Source: Streptomyces sp. NBC_01478
GTDB lineage: Bacteria > Actinomycetota > Actinomycetes > Streptomycetales > Streptomycetaceae
Assembly (NCBI RefSeq): GCF_036227225.1
Contig: NZ_CP109444.1
Span: 1,488,001 to 1,552,000 of the forward strand
Length of the DNA stretch: 64,000 bases
Direction of reading: 5' to 3'
Each line of letters starts with the position of its first letter. The stretch's first letter is position 1. Position numbers and translations under genes: made by a program. The notes beneath the pieces were generated by a model. It saw nothing but the letters and a program-made list of their open reading frames with translations. It was not told the origin of the DNA and did not search any database. Shown one piece after another: positions 4,186-44,490 of this stretch.

Positions 4186-4845
4186 ATGGTCATGTCCTCT
4201 TCCTCCCGCTCCCGCGGCATCCTCGGGAGTGCCGCGGTGGCCGTCGCAGTCGCCGGTGCCACCGTCGCCGGAGCGGGAGCGGCCTATGCCGCTCCTGGCG
4301 ACAGCGGCAACATCGACGTCCGCTCGGTCGACTGGCACTCGCGCGGCAGCGACGGGGTCGAGGTCTGTGAGTTCGTCCTCGTCGCCAGCAACTTCGAGTC
4401 GTTCCCCGCGGTCGCCTGGACGATCACCGCGCAGCCCCCCACCATCCCGCCGGGCGACACCCTGCAGAGCACGCTGCCGCTGATCAACGGCTCGGCGCAC
4501 AGCGCGAAGTACCTCATCCCGCACGGCACGTATCAGTTGGTGTGGATCACTCCGGCGGGCCCCAAGCAGCGGCGGTTCTCGGTGGACTGCCGCCGCCACG
4601 GCCAGCAGGGCCGGCCGGAGCAGCAGGGTCGCGGCCCCGCGGCGATCGGCCCGGGCACCGAGTACCACAAGCCCAGCGGCGGTGTGCCCGCGGGCGGCGG
4701 CGGTGTCCCGGACATGCAGAACCTCAGCTCCGAGGGCGATTCGAACACCGGCACCACCACCGCGCTGACCGCCGGTGGGATCGCCATCGCGGCGCTCGTC
4801 ATGGTCCGCCGAGCCGCGCGCCGCCGTGCCCGCCACGACGTATAA
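4186..4845 (+). CDS. Secreted, C-terminally anchored surface protein
   Basis: A 219-residue protein with a signal peptide (MVMSSSSRSRGILGSAAVAV, cleavage probably after GAGAAYA), a roughly 110-residue extracellular part, a low-complexity Gly/Pro/Gln linker, and a C-terminal hydrophobic stretch (TALTAGGIAIAALVM) followed by an Arg-rich tail. That is the architecture of a wall- or membrane-anchored protein. Ahead of the hydrophobic stretch is GDSNTG, not a standard LPXTG or LAXTG sorting signal. I chose the ATG at 4186 because it gives a normal signal peptide with GAAGG upstream; an earlier ATG at 4123 would add 21 residues. Its stop overlaps the start of the sortase gene, so the two are probably made together and the protein is a candidate sortase substrate. 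Confidence 0.75.
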   Translation: MVMSSSSRSRGILGSAAVAVAVAGATVAGAGAAYAAPGDSGNIDVRSVDWHSRGSDGVEVCEFVLVASNFESFPAVAWTITAQPPTIPPGDTLQSTLPLINGSAHSAKYLIPHGTYQLVWITPAGPKQRRFSVDCRRHGQQGRPEQQGRGPAAIGPGTEYHKPSGGVPAGGGGVPDMQNLSSEGDSNTGTTTALTAGGIAIAALVMVRRAARRRARHDV

Positions 4846-5524
4846 CCACCGCCTACGGCCGCGACCGCGGCGGCGACGGGGGCCCAGTCGTGCGTGCCGC
4901 TTGTCGATGACGCTGTGTGCGACCTTCTCGCTGGTGACCGGTGTCGTCTGGGCGTGTTCAGACTCCTCCGACAGTCCCACGATCACCGCCGCCCGTGCCA
5001 ATGACGCCGCGGGCGGCGGCGCTCCCCCGGCCCGACAGGCCCCGCACGCACCCCTGGCGCGCTCGCGGCCGGTGAAAATCTCCATTCCCGCCATCTTCAT
5101 CGAGGCCCCGGTGACCGGCCTCGACCTCGACAAGAAGGGTCAGTTGGGCGCTCCGCCACTCAGCAGACCGAAGGTGGTGGGCTGGTTCCGCAACGGTCCG
5201 TCACCCGGCGAGGCGGGACCTTCGCTGATCGTCGGTCATCGCGACACCACGACCGGGCCGGCGATCTTCCTCAACCTCAACGCCCTGCACCCGGGCGACC
5301 TGGTGAAGGTCACCCGGGCCGACCGGACGACCGCCGTGTTCACCGTCGACGAGGTGCAGAAGTACGCCAAGGACAAGTTCCCCGACAACAAGGTGTACGG
5401 GACCACCAGGCGTCCCGAACTCCGGCTCATGACGTGCGGCGGAAGCTTCGACAAGAAGCACGGCTATTCGGCCAACGTCGTCGTCTTCGCCCACCTCGTC
5501 TCGGTCAGGAAGCAGCGAGCCTGA
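4826..5524 (+). CDS. Class F sortase
   Basis: The conserved core VKISIPAIFIEAPV, then SLIVGHRDTTTGPAIFLNL and LRLMTCGGSFD carries the catalytic histidine (GHRDT) and cysteine (TCGG) of class F sortases, the small transpeptidase-like enzymes common in actinobacteria. An N-terminal membrane segment (CATFSLVTGVVWACS) would anchor it outside the cytoplasmic membrane. I chose the GTG at 4826, overlapping the end of the upstream surface-protein gene by 20 bp, which suggests translational coupling. Class F sortases are usually thought to cleave LPXTG-like signals, but the neighbour lacks one, so the partner relation is inferred. Confidence 0.8.
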   Translation: MPATTYNHRLRPRPRRRRGPSRACRLSMTLCATFSLVTGVVWACSDSSDSPTITAARANDAAGGGAPPARQAPHAPLARSRPVKISIPAIFIEAPVTGLDLDKKGQLGAPPLSRPKVVGWFRNGPSPGEAGPSLIVGHRDTTTGPAIFLNLNALHPGDLVKVTRADRTTAVFTVDEVQKYAKDKFPDNKVYGTTRRPELRLMTCGGSFDKKHGYSANVVVFAHLVSVRKQRA

Positions 5525-16356: not shown

Positions 16357-16527
16357 CTATCGAACGGGGCGGCTGCCGGAGCGATGAGACCAGCGCACGG
16401 CGACAAGGGCCAAGGCCGCCACGAGCACGGCGATGCCGATCACCAGCAGGTAGCCCAGGCCGTGCGCGGTCACCCCGACGATTCCCAGTACGAGGGCGAT
16501 CAGGACAAGCAGCAGGAAGAGAACCAT
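16357..16527 (-). CDS. Small hydrophobic membrane protein (56 aa)
   Basis: MVLFLLLVLIALVLGIVGVT opens a 56-residue protein with two membrane helices and a basic tail (RWSHRSGSRPVR). The ATG at 16527 follows AGGTGGT by a few bases and lies 32 bp after the stop of the PRC-barrel gene, so the two are probably one transcript. It converges with the sigma factor gene, stops 25 bp apart. Function unknown. Confidence 0.7.
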   Translation of the reverse strand: MVLFLLLVLIALVLGIVGVTAHGLGYLLVIGIAVLVAALALVAVRWSHRSGSRPVR

Positions 16528-16559
16528 CACGGAACACCACCTTCAGGTCGAGCGGCGGG

Positions 16560-16922
16560 TCAGCGGCGCGCGAGTTGCCGCTCGCCGCCTGCGCCGGGCC
16601 GGTAGTCCATGTCGTAGTGCTGGAAGATCGCTTCCTCTCCCTCGGCCGGGAGGATGTCGTCCGTGCCGATCGACGGCGCCTTCTTCACCTGCGCCTTCGG
16701 GTAGGTGACCTTGACGTAGTCGGGTCCGAGGATCGCGTCGCCGAGGGGGACGAACGCCAGCCGCTGACGCGTGGGCAGTCCGATGCGGACGGTGGCCATG
16801 GCCGACTCGTCGGTGGCGGTGTCCACGTAGATCGATTCGAGTACGCCGATCCTGTGCCCCTCGGAGTCGACGACGTTGCGGTTGCGCCACTCACGGATGT
16901 CGGCCGCGTGGATCGTGGTCAT
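16560..16922 (-). CDS. PRC-barrel domain protein
   Basis: A 120-residue protein beginning MTTIHAADIREWRNRNVVDS, followed by GHRIGVLESIYVDTATDE and RLAFVPLGDAILGPDYVKV, the beta-barrel pattern of PRC-barrel domains. Such single-domain proteins are common in Streptomyces and are often linked to stress regulons; their role is unknown. I chose the ATG at 16922 because AGGAGA lies 7 bases before it. A short membrane protein gene follows in the same direction. Confidence 0.8.
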   Translation of the reverse strand: MTTIHAADIREWRNRNVVDSEGHRIGVLESIYVDTATDESAMATVRIGLPTRQRLAFVPLGDAILGPDYVKVTYPKAQVKKAPSIGTDDILPAEGEEAIFQHYDMDYRPGAGGERQLARR

Positions 16923-17151
16923 GTTCTGTCTCCTGAGCCGCTGGTACCGAACGGGTTCCCCGGAGATCGCCCCTGACACCAGCCGAACCCGGCAAATGGC
17001 GCGCCTTCAGGTGGGTCGGACGCGATGCCGGGGGTAGCCGGACCGTGGGAACCGACGCTCCCCATGACCCACTCTGGGTTCCCGGCACGCAGGAATGACG
17101 TCCACGGGGCAGCCCGGCTCCGTACGCCCCGAGGTGCGCCCCCACTAACGA

Positions 17152-40481: not shown

Positions 40482-40525
40482 GCGCGGCAGGCACGGGTGG
40501 CCCTCGGGGCCCGTACCTGCCGCGC
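40482..40525. terminator. Bidirectional hairpin terminator
   Basis: Arms GCGCGGCAGGCACGGG and CCCGTACCTGCCGCGC (15 of 16 pairs), between the convergent GH/CBM gene and the carboxylase-polyesterase fusion gene. Confidence 0.8.
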
Positions 40526-40538
40526 TCTCCGGGGAGTC

Positions 40539-41843
40539 CTACATCGGGCAGGTGTTCTGGAAGGCAACGGTGTTGGCGTCGTTGGGAGTTGGGCAGATGA
40601 ACTGGTCGTAGCGGGTGTCGTTGTCGACGAAGCGTTTGAGCCAGACGATGCTGTACTCGGCGACCGTGGTGTTCGGGCTGGCGAAGGTGAAGTGGTCGGC
40701 GTTCCTGAGCTCGATGAACGCCTTGTCGTGGTCGTTCGTCAGAGCGTTGTAGGCGGGCAGGGTGAAGGTGTCGACCGGGGCGACGGTGTCCCCGTCGGCG
40801 CCGAAGATCATGGTGGGCACGGTGATCTGGTCGCCGACGTTGACGATGTCCCAGGGCGCCAGCGCGATGGCCGCCTTGAGCGACGGGGTGCTCGCCGCGC
40901 TCTCCAGCGTGCCGCCGCCGCCCATCGACCAGCCCATCACGGCCGTCCGGGTGGGGTCGATCTCGTTCTTCACCGCACTCTTGGTCGTCAAGTAGCTGAG
41001 CGCGGCGAGCTGTTGGTTGCTGCGGTCGGTCGGGAAGTCCCACAGCGCGTTGCTGTCCAGGGTCATCACCACGAAGCCCTGGGAGGCGAGCCGGGGTCCG
41101 TACCAGGCGATCTCCGCCTGCGGGGCGACGAAGCCCGGCATGATGACGACGGCGCCGAAGGTGCCCTGGCTGGTGTCGGTGGGGAAATAGATGGTGCCGT
41201 TGTTGAAGCCCGAGCCGCTGCCCGAGGGGACGACGACCGAGGCGACGGTGAACGGACCGGTCTCGGCGGTGACGCTGGCGGCACCGCCCGCGCACGGGCC
41301 CATGATCACGGAGATCTGCGGGATGACGCCCGAGGCCCGGACGTTGCGGTGGGCCAGTTCGGCGTAGAGAGCGAGCGAGGAGACGCCCTCCTGGATGCGG
41401 GCGCCACCGGAGTCGTTGAGGCCGATGACCGGGCAACCGATCTTCAGAGCGAGGTCCATCGTGCCGACGACCTTCTCCCCGCACGCCTCGCCCATGCTGC
41501 CGCCGTGGACGGTGGCGTCCTGCGCGAAGACGCACACCTGGCGCCCGCCGACGGTGCCTGAGCCAGTGACCACACCGTCGCCGTACGCCGCGTCGTCGGT
41601 ACCGCTGCGGGCGCGTACCAATGCGCCGGTCTCGACGAAGGAACCCTGGTCCAGCAGCCTCGCGACGCGTTCACGGGCCGTGAGCCGACCACGCGCCGTC
41701 TGCCGGGCGACGGCCGACGCGGAGCCGCCCGCCAGGGCCTGCCGGTGCCGGACGGAGAGATCCACGAGCCGTGCCGCCGTGCTTCGTGCAGCGGGCGCGG
41801 GCGATCCCAGGGTTTCCGCAGTCGAGGTCACAGCCACCTCCAT
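40539..41843 (-). CDS. Chimeric protein: acyl-CoA carboxylase beta N-terminal half fused to PETase/cutinase-like hydrolase
   Basis: A single uninterrupted 434-residue frame. Residues 1-188 are the first half of an acyl-CoA carboxylase carboxyltransferase subunit ([87 protein letters not shown]). From about residue 189 it becomes a mature cutinase/PETase-like polyester hydrolase: [11 protein letters not shown], then [20 protein letters not shown], nucleophile S306 in [10 protein letters not shown]352 in [10 protein letters not shown]384 in NADHFT, and a C-terminal cysteine pair (FICPTPN and TCPM). The signal peptide of the polyesterase and the second half of the carboxylase are both missing, so the fusion looks like a large deletion that happened to keep frame. 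A GTG at 41831, five bases after GGAGG, may be the true start. Whether the product is stable is unknown. Confidence 0.8.
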
Positions 41844-42264
41844 CGGGGCTTGTGAGCATGGCAGTTGAGCGGGGTGCGGTCTGCCTTTCCGCCGGCAATG
41901 TGAAGTTGTTGAGTGGTCCGGGGCCCGCGTTCATAGATGGCCTACAAGTGGACGGCAGCGATCGCGTCAGTGGGAGCGGTACGTCGACAGCAATGCGGTG
42001 ATCTCGCGGTGAGGCCATGCGGTGGGTTCCGTGGGCAGGACCGCGTCTTCGGTGAATCGGCCAGGTGGCGGCCGACCCAGCCCTCTCCGGTGCTCAGCCT
42101 CGCCAGACCGCAGGGCGCAGTCAGCAGAACAGTCCCCCAGCAGCCAGGCACGCCCATGAGCGTCCCAGCTCGTGACCTTCGCTCCCGCAAGGTCGATACT
42201 TTCCATAGGGGCTCGCCCGCCGCCCGCCACCGACCGACTCCAGAAGCCTGACGACCCGTCATCA

Positions 42265-42409: not shown

Positions 42410-43402
42410 ATGAGGATGCTCATCAATGTCGCGGAGACCGTGGTCACGGACGCGCTGCGAGGCATGGCGTCCGCCCATCCCGAGTTGATCGTGGACGTCG
42501 AGAACCGGGTGATCGTACGGCGGGACGCCCCCGTGGCCGGGCAGGTCGGGCTTGTTTCCGGTGGGGGGTCGGGGCACGAGCCGTTGCACGGCGGATTTGT
42601 CGGGCCGGGGATGTTGTCGGCGGCCTGTCCCGGTGAGGTGTTCACGTCGCCGGTGCCCGATCAGATGGTGCGGGCCGCGGCCGCCGTGAACAGTGGTGCC
42701 GGGGTGCTTTTCATCGTGAAGAACTACACGGGCGACGTCCTCAACTTCGACATGGCGGCCGAGCTCGCCGAGGACGAGGGCATCCAGATCGCCAAGGTGC
42801 TGGTCAATGACGATGTGGCCGTCACCGACAGTCTCTACACCGCCGGGCGGCGCGGCACCGGCGCGACGCTGTTCGTGGAGAAGATCGCCGGTGCCGCCGC
42901 GGCCGAGGGGCAGCCGTTGGACCGGGTGGCGGCGATCGCCCGGCAGGTCAATGAGAACGCGCGCAGTTTCGGTGTCGCGCTCAGCGCCTGCACCACCCCG
43001 GCCAAGGGCAGCCCCACCTTCGATCTGCCGCCCGGCGAACTGGAGTTGGGCGTCGGTATCCACGGCGAGCCGGGCCGGGAGCGGCGCGCGATGATGACCT
43101 CCGGCGAGATCGCCGACTTCGCCGTCCACGCGATCCTCGAGGACATGGCACCGCGCAACCCCGTCCTGCTCCTGGTCAACGGCATGGGTGCGACCCCGCT
43201 CCTGGAGCTCTACGGCTTCAACGCCGAGGTCCACCGGGTGCTCGCCGAGCGCGGGGTCGCCGTCGCCCGCACACTGGTCGGCAACTACGTCACGTCTCTC
43301 GACATGGCGGGTGCCTCGGTCACCCTGTGCCAGATCGACGAGGAACTGCTGCGGCTGTGGGACGCGCCGGTGAAGACCCCGGGACTGCGCTGGGGCGTGT
43401 GA
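42410..43402 (+). CDS. dhaK: Dihydroxyacetone kinase, substrate-binding subunit DhaK
   Basis: A 330-residue DhaK. It has the glycine-rich phosphate/substrate loop LVSGGGSGHEPLHGGFVG, whose histidine region lies near the covalently bound dihydroxyacetone, and LVNGMGATPLLELYGFNAEV toward the end. DhaK binds dihydroxyacetone; DhaL supplies ADP-bound phosphate, recharged by DhaM from the phosphotransferase system. ATG at 42410 with AGGAGG 6 bases before it. It is the first gene of a dhaKLM operon, spaced 46 and 1 bp from the next two. Confidence 0.95.
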   Translation: MRMLINVAETVVTDALRGMASAHPELIVDVENRVIVRRDAPVAGQVGLVSGGGSGHEPLHGGFVGPGMLSAACPGEVFTSPVPDQMVRAAAAVNSGAGVLFIVKNYTGDVLNFDMAAELAEDEGIQIAKVLVNDDVAVTDSLYTAGRRGTGATLFVEKIAGAAAAEGQPLDRVAAIARQVNENARSFGVALSACTTPAKGSPTFDLPPGELELGVGIHGEPGRERRAMMTSGEIADFAVHAILEDMAPRNPVLLLVNGMGATPLLELYGFNAEVHRVLAERGVAVARTLVGNYVTSLDMAGASVTLCQIDEELLRLWDAPVKTPGLRWGV

Positions 43403-43448
43403 CCCGGCGGCACATCCGGTCAACTCACCCACCACGCAAGGAGATCCC

Positions 43449-44066
43449 GTGCTCGACGCCGACTTCTTCCGCCGTTGGTTGACGGCCACCGCCGCCTCCG
43501 TGACCCGCGAGGCGGACCGGCTCACCGACCTCGACTCCCCCATCGGCGACGCCGACCACGGCGCGAACCTGAAACGCGGGTTCACCGCCGTGACAGCCAC
43601 CCTGGAGAAGGAGGCACCGGACACCCCGGGCGCCGTCCTCACCCTCGCCGGCCGCCAGCTCATCTCCACGGTCGGCGGCGCGTCGGGGCCGCTCTACGGC
43701 ACCCTGCTGCGCCGTACCGGCAAGGCGCTCGGGGACGCCGCCGAGGTGAGCGAGGAGGAGTTCGCCGTCGCGCTGCGCACCGGAGTCGACGCGGTCATGA
43801 CCCTCGGCGGTGCGGCACCCGGTGACAAGACCATGATCGACGCTCTCGTCCCGGCGGTCGACGCGCTCCCGGACGGCTTCGCCGCGGCACGCGCCGCCGC
43901 CGAGGAGGGTGCCCTGGCCACCACGCCCCTGCAGGCCCGCAAGGGGCGGGCGAGCTACCTCGGGGAGCGGAGCATCGGACACCAGGACCCGGGCGCGACC
44001 TCCTCGGCGCTGCTGATCGCCGCGCTCCAGGAAGCGGCCGAGGCGACCGGCGAAGGAGGCGAGTGA
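43449..44066 (+). CDS. dhaL: Dihydroxyacetone kinase, ADP-binding subunit DhaL
   Basis: A 205-residue all-helical DhaL with the metal/ADP-binding aspartates in DSPIGDADHGANLKRGF and the TMIDALVPAVDAL segment that follows GDK. It takes phosphate from DhaM onto bound ADP and transfers it to the dihydroxyacetone on DhaK. GTG start at 43449 with AAGGAGA upstream. DhaM starts 1 bp after its stop. Confidence 0.95.
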   Translation: MLDADFFRRWLTATAASVTREADRLTDLDSPIGDADHGANLKRGFTAVTATLEKEAPDTPGAVLTLAGRQLISTVGGASGPLYGTLLRRTGKALGDAAEVSEEEFAVALRTGVDAVMTLGGAAPGDKTMIDALVPAVDALPDGFAAARAAAEEGALATTPLQARKGRASYLGERSIGHQDPGATSSALLIAALQEAAEATGEGGE

Positions 44067-44067
44067 C

Positions 44068-44490
44068 GTGAGCGACATGAGTGACGAGAAGAAGCTCGTG
44101 GGCATCGTGCTGGTGTCCCACAGCGCCGAAGTCGCCGCCTCCGTGGCCGAGTTGGCGCGGGGGCTGTCCGGCGCGGGCGCCTCGGTGCCGCTCGCCGCCG
44201 CCGGCGGCACCGAGGGCGGCGGGCTCGGCACCAGTTCCGAACTCATCGCCGCGGCGGCCGCGTCCGTCGACCGCGGCGCCGGCGTCGCCGTCCTCACCGA
44301 CCTGGGCAGCGCCGTACTCACGGTGAAGGCCTTGCTCGCCGAAGGCGACGAACTCCCGGCCGGCACCCGCCTGGTGGACGCCCCGTTCGTCGAGGGCGCG
44401 GTGGCCGCGGTCGTCACGGCGTCGACGGGAGCGGACCTGGACGCGGTGGAGGCGGCGGCCGCGGAGGCGTACACCTACCGGAAGGTGTGA
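44068..44490 (+). CDS. dhaM: Dihydroxyacetone kinase phosphotransfer subunit DhaM
   Basis: A 140-residue single-domain DhaM of the EIIA-mannose fold. GIVLVSHSAEVAASVAELAR contains the phosphate-carrying histidine. It has no fused HPr or EI domains, as usual in Gram-positives, and would be charged by HPr of the PTS. GTG at 44068, so close behind dhaL that translation is coupled. It is convergent with the TetR gene, 12 bp apart. Confidence 0.9.
   Translation: MSDMSDEKKLVGIVLVSHSAEVAASVAELARGLSGAGASVPLAAAGGTEGGGLGTSSELIAAAAASVDRGAGVAVLTDLGSAVLTVKALLAEGDELPAGTRLVDAPFVEGAVAAVVTASTGADLDAVEAAAAEAYTYRKV

Follow-up and report, generated by a model that had tools for sequence, protein, structure and literature searches.

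A carboxylase-PETase chimeric gene of Streptomyces, most probably the scar of a recent deletion

The stretch of DNA analysed here (the window) comprises 64,000 nucleotides of the genome of Streptomyces sp. NBC_01478, positions 1,488,001-1,552,000 of its one contig, which is 12,124,816 bases long; the assembly is 99.87% complete. On its minus strand, positions 40539-41843 form one open frame of 434 codons with no internal stop. The preliminary description had this frame join residues 1-188 of a carboxyltransferase subunit to a polyesterase at about position 41276, and both Pfam and the breaks in DNA homology bear this out; the joint is placed at about codon 189 because carboxylase and PETase DNA homology both stop there. 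The features of the locus are the following.

40539..41843, minus strand: fused open reading frame counted from ATG, 434 amino acids (open-frame listing and Pfam)
40539..41831, minus strand: most likely coding sequence, GTG start, 430 amino acids (GTGACCTCGA kept in L119 and L122; ATG at 41843 not kept)
41837..41841, minus strand: GGAGG resembling a ribosome-binding site, 5 nt 5′ of the GTG (in 3 of 3 aligned sequences)
41844..41956, minus strand: retained carboxylase leader/promoter region (homology to L119 reaches 41956)
41277..41843, minus strand: acyl-CoA carboxylase beta subunit, N-terminal third, residues 1-189 (PF01039; cut within the GGAAYSPA stretch of relatives)
41277..41279, minus strand: joint codon GCC, Ala189 (DNA homology breaks and protein comparison)
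40542..41276, minus strand: PETase-family hydrolase domain without signal peptide, residues 190-434 (PF12740; AlphaFold2; TM-score)
40926..40928, minus strand: presumed catalytic Ser306, in GWSMGG (invariant column in alignment A2, 52 sequences)
40788..40790, minus strand: presumed catalytic Asp352 (invariant column, A2, 52 sequences)
40692..40694, minus strand: presumed catalytic His384 (invariant column, A2, 52 sequences)
40593..40595, minus strand: Cys417 of the C-terminal pair (invariant column, A2, 52 sequences)
40548..40550, minus strand: Cys432 of the C-terminal pair (invariant column, A2, 52 sequences)

Translation more likely starts at the GTG at 41831 than at the ATG at 41843, which would give a product of 430 amino acids, because GGAGG and GTG are conserved and the ATG is not; the bases aligned to the latter are no start codon in either of the two relatives compared (L119 and L122, which are loci of genomes G263 and G182, respectively). 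A whole carboxylase from a JGI contig (P0024) is annotated with the same early start as the ATG of the fused frame, perhaps as an artefact of gene calling. Neither a sigma-70-like promoter nor a terminator was found around the fused frame by a consensus scan. Upstream of the chimera and divergent from it, three consecutive frames (window 42410-44490), named by eye, resemble DhaK, DhaL, and DhaM, that is, a dihydroxyacetone kinase set.

The first 189 residues, the leader, and the start are those of an acyl-CoA carboxylase beta subunit of the PccB/AccD type; identity to the whole genes over query residues 2-200 is 82% (L119) and 87% (L122). The Pfam family Carboxyl_trans (PF01039) matches residues 48-191 with 160 bits, but covers only profile positions 2-149 of 493, whereas the relative in L119, which also matches PDB entries 3IAV and 1XNY, spans positions 2-493. 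Unlike the whole enzymes, the chimera is thus cut at about profile position 149 in GGAAYSPA, and with about two thirds of the enzyme gone the remaining third is expected to be inactive. When columns with at least 80% of the relatives present are counted, the residues private to this third in a comparison with eight carboxylases are Ser155 and the first one beyond the joint. Its dN/dS against relatives is 0.19-0.24 (0.14 between two relatives), values that do not tell decay apart from ordinary evolution since a recent event.

The hydrolase half matches the Pfam family PETase (PF12740) at residues 186-432, over profile positions 13-262 of 263 and with 324.6 bits against a curated cut-off of 28; in the NCBIfam model for bis(hydroxyethyl) terephthalate hydrolase it scores 340.6 against a cut-off of 520. 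It is the only locus of the genome above the PF12740 cut-off, one more weak match reaching 21.8 bits against 28. The AlphaFold2 model of residues 187-434 alone, not of the whole chimera, has a mean pLDDT of 95.8 and the alpha/beta-hydrolase fold, with a TM-score (query length) of up to 0.98 against solved PET hydrolases, a value reached with 1JFR and with PHL7 and Cut190 entries; the domain therefore probably folds, as far as a predicted structure can tell. With the PETase/cutinase family (PHL7, Cut190, and the Streptomyces exfoliatus lipase 1JFR) it shares this fold at about 50-54% identity, the Ser-Asp-His columns, and the C-terminal cysteine pair. Ser306, Asp352, and His384 would have the catalytic roles known for the family, and the pair Cys417 and Cys432 forms a disulphide in the secreted relatives. 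The chimera differs from the family in what precedes the domain, where 189 carboxylase residues stand in place of a signal peptide and about a dozen mature N-terminal residues.

The measure for this loss is P0001, an unfused protein of 289 amino acids with an N-terminal leader, encoded on a 1648-base ENA contig, from which the hydrolase half differs in 3 of 245 residues. Residues 1-43 of P0001 are replaced in the chimera by carboxylase sequence and have no counterpart there; the secretion signal would thus be lost, as had been proposed. The preliminary description had also called the hydrolase an almost complete mature polyesterase, which is right in that nearly the whole PF12740 domain is present, but about a dozen mature N-terminal residues, as estimated by eye against P0001, appear to be gone along with the signal peptide. 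The chimera should consequently be kept in the cytoplasm, without export, and is expected to add nothing to polyester use outside the cell. In comparison with 23 PETase relatives, counted by the same 80% rule, no residue of the hydrolase half is private; the sole private one in the compared piece, residue 187, belongs to the carboxylase part. The dN/dS of the hydrolase against relatives (0.44-0.65, with 0.54 between two relatives) does not discriminate between decay and ordinary evolution since a recent event either.

The joint is sharp. Homology to carboxylase genes ends at 41277 and that to PETase genes at 41272-41279, and Ala189 is common to the carboxylases and P0001. In a DNA search of 150 relatives, the carboxylase matches listed end at or before query position 1124 and the hydrolase matches begin at or after 1122, which puts the break at 41276-41279. 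Judged from these relatives, the parents would share at most a few bases, about a codon, at the joint.

That no such fusion was known had been stated at the outset, and the statement has stood up: no second joint appeared among the matches listed in 392 genomes of the genus, 150 relatives, and 5.77 billion proteins. Of the 392 genomes (a sample, own genome included), 236 have a match at E≤1e-60; the strain's own gene reaches 958 bits across residues 1-434, against 433 bits across 187-434 for the runner-up among the matches listed. A second fusion should rank above such matches, so none is expected beyond those listed. In the set of 150 relatives, which shares 91 genomes with the 392, no genome but the strain's own spans the joint in the matches listed, and among the best 120 of 8000 proteins scored out of the 5.77 billion, query coverage is 66% or less in every case. 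The hydrolase half had no match at E≤1e-3 in 80 loci (80 of 589 confirmed), each of about 11 kb or less, a span that misses hydrolase genes lying farther off, as in L039. Two loci, L088 (query 28-347) and L089 (query 25-242), were considered as fusions and rejected; when the halves were searched apart, only the carboxylase third matched (about 59% and 58%), and the matches past the joint are gapped over-extensions. In the open-licence literature, no paper on a carboxylase-PETase fusion was found by title or the start of the abstract.

Both parents exist as whole genes on one strand of a relative. In L119 (G263, contig C97, 24001-44000), window positions 40523-41272 correspond to 4451-5197 (84% identity) and 41277-41956 to 16418-17097 (86%), in the same order and strand and with about 11.2 kb between them. 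The minus-strand order there is carboxylase beta subunit, AMP-binding ligase, polyketide synthase (with KS, AT, two carrier domains, and a thioesterase), PF00756 esterase, PucR-type regulator, a protein of 220 amino acids, and PETase with its leader. Measured by L119, the window lacks the rest of the carboxylase gene, the FadD32-like ligase, the Pks13-like synthase, the mycolyltransferase-like esterase, PucR, the 220-amino-acid protein, and the hydrolase leader. In G182, a short contig carries the whole carboxylase gene and then the ligase, up to the contig end. Eight carboxylases are among the best 120 of 8000 scored proteins, and four of these eight have a longest-contig size equal to that of a separate PETase match, which suggests that carboxylase and PETase are linked in as many as four further strains (one of the pairs carries two species names).

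The PETase gene is not tied to the mycolate-like row in all relatives, because in G007 (a 19 kb stretch) and G138 (a 7 kb contig) it adjoins the gene for the 220-amino-acid protein, and the stretch covered lacks any carboxylase or ligase of this kind. In these two genomes and in G318, the PETase gene has instead, a few kb away, a polyketide synthase 33-39% like that of L119 (L120 13605-16112; L121 873-2195; L123 1417-3912), apparently a second kind of PETase neighbourhood. The 220-amino-acid protein itself, probably secreted and without a Pfam or NCBIfam match, is encoded directly upstream of PETase in G263, G007, and G138 (L119 4464-6011; L120 9488-11033; L121 4813-6359); the G263 protein is about 75% identical to those of G007 and G138, and the window has none. 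In G318, the PETase relative (L123 6638-7189) matches only residues 248-434 and has two TGA codons inside; this is perhaps another species with a broken PETase gene. Outside the row, the flanks of the window differ from those of the relatives, because none of the neighbouring genes tested (sugar-binding protein, LacI, glycoside hydrolase, DhaK, DhaL, DhaM, and SDR, named by eye) had a match in L119-L124, which are stretches of six relatives.

A second row of carboxylase, ligase, synthase, esterase, and PucR genes is present in the strain's own genome at about 1.876-1.886 Mb (L159 3383-13062); its genes are 56-76% identical to those of L119 over most or all of each gene, and G263 and G182 also carry it. 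In genome-wide searches the best own-genome matches of the removed synthase (64% identity), ligase (67%), esterase (61%), and PucR (55%) all lie in this second row; that of the 220-amino-acid protein (64%) lies at 9.0 Mb. Such rows of carboxylase beta subunit, FadD32-like, Pks13-like, corynomycolyltransferase/Ag85-like, and PucR genes (L119 6932-16978; L159; L160; L161) resemble a mycolate-condensation set: the best solved relatives are Pks13 for the synthase, an acyl-CoA synthase and FadD32 for the ligase, and PS1 and Cmt1 for the esterase, with synthase and ligase remaining below the NCBIfam cut-offs for Pks13 and FadD32. The ligase is found at E≤1e-180 in 43 of the 392 genus genomes, with two copies only in G263 and G182. 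No paper on a mycolate-like row in Streptomyces was found in the open-licence literature by title or abstract start, and the row is a more interesting lead than the chimera.

Chimeric genes at deletion joints are a general kind known in bacterial chromosomes, in which nearby genes of the same strand are fused in frame by loss of what lies between them. The present gene is like these in its making and differs in its partners, a carboxylase and a PETase not found joined among the best 120 of 8000 proteins or in the open-licence literature. We consider it most probable, at roughly 0.88, that a deletion of about 11.2 kb took place recently and that this gene is the scar it left. On the minus strand, the ancestor would have carried the mycolate-condensation-like row, then the 220-amino-acid, probably secreted protein, and then a secreted PETase-family hydrolase; this ancestral locus is derived by sequence comparison from a single relative in which the row is complete but the outer flanks are unlike those of the window, and the loss would have occurred in the lineage of this strain. 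One break would have fallen at carboxylase codon 189, the second some 43 codons inside the hydrolase gene; the ends would have met at no more than a few shared bases, the frame being kept by chance. The resulting gene would retain the carboxylase leader, ribosome-binding site, and GTG start and, if expressed from them, would yield an inactive carboxylase third in front of a hydrolase domain that is probably folded and intracellular for want of a signal peptide. The net effect would be the loss of the secreted enzyme and of one of two row copies, with the second copy remaining.

Neither half shows decay, and the event is therefore taken to be recent; a recent event and a domain kept for its function both fit the data, recency being the simpler reading. 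The preliminary description had named, as what would speak against it, the lack of any other strain with the joint together with clear decay in both halves: no other strain was found among the matches listed, but decay is absent, and the joint is probably strain-specific. It had also offered two alternatives, a non-functional deletion product or a polyesterase placed in the cytoplasm. A deletion product is supported by the two genes standing whole about 11.2 kb apart in a relative and by the lack of a second joint among the matches listed. A cytoplasmic polyesterase is conceivable as biochemistry, with the predicted fold and the catalytic columns intact, but nothing shows it to be kept for a function.

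It is unlikely that the joint is an error of assembly, with both whole genes and the intervening 11 kb still in the strain and dropped by the assembler. P0001 shows that a near-identical unfused gene exists somewhere, but the genome is one contig of 12.12 Mb at 99.87% completeness, the parents, judged from relatives, share about a codon at the joint, which leaves no repeat to mislead the assembler, and the removed genes occur elsewhere in the assembly at no more than 55-67% identity. That the gene was fused elsewhere and then acquired by transfer was considered and rejected, no fused relative having been found among the matches listed. Very improbable, too, is a new gene kept by selection, an intracellular esterase made from the carboxylase leader whose carboxylase third would act as a solubilising piece or dock on acyl-CoA carboxylase complexes. 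In its favour, no damage is seen in the frame, the leader, the ribosome-binding site, the predicted fold, or the catalytic columns, and once residues at the joint are set aside, the carboxylase third carries a single private residue and the hydrolase half has none; such intactness, however, is equally expected of a recent event, the gene occurs in one genome only among the matches listed, the carboxylase third is a partial domain (profile 2-149 of 493), and the C-terminal cysteine pair presumably suits the cell exterior.

The gene is thus most likely a deletion scar, probably without useful function, although automatic pipelines could list it as a "carboxylase-PETase" multidomain enzyme. It is a faint prospect that a newborn chimeric enzyme has been caught here, a secreted polyesterase that a single step brought into the cytoplasm and under carboxylase control with its active site intact, and on which selection for an internal esterase role could begin. 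If the deletion product is expressed, nature would here offer a clean example of a single deletion moving a secreted enzyme to another place.
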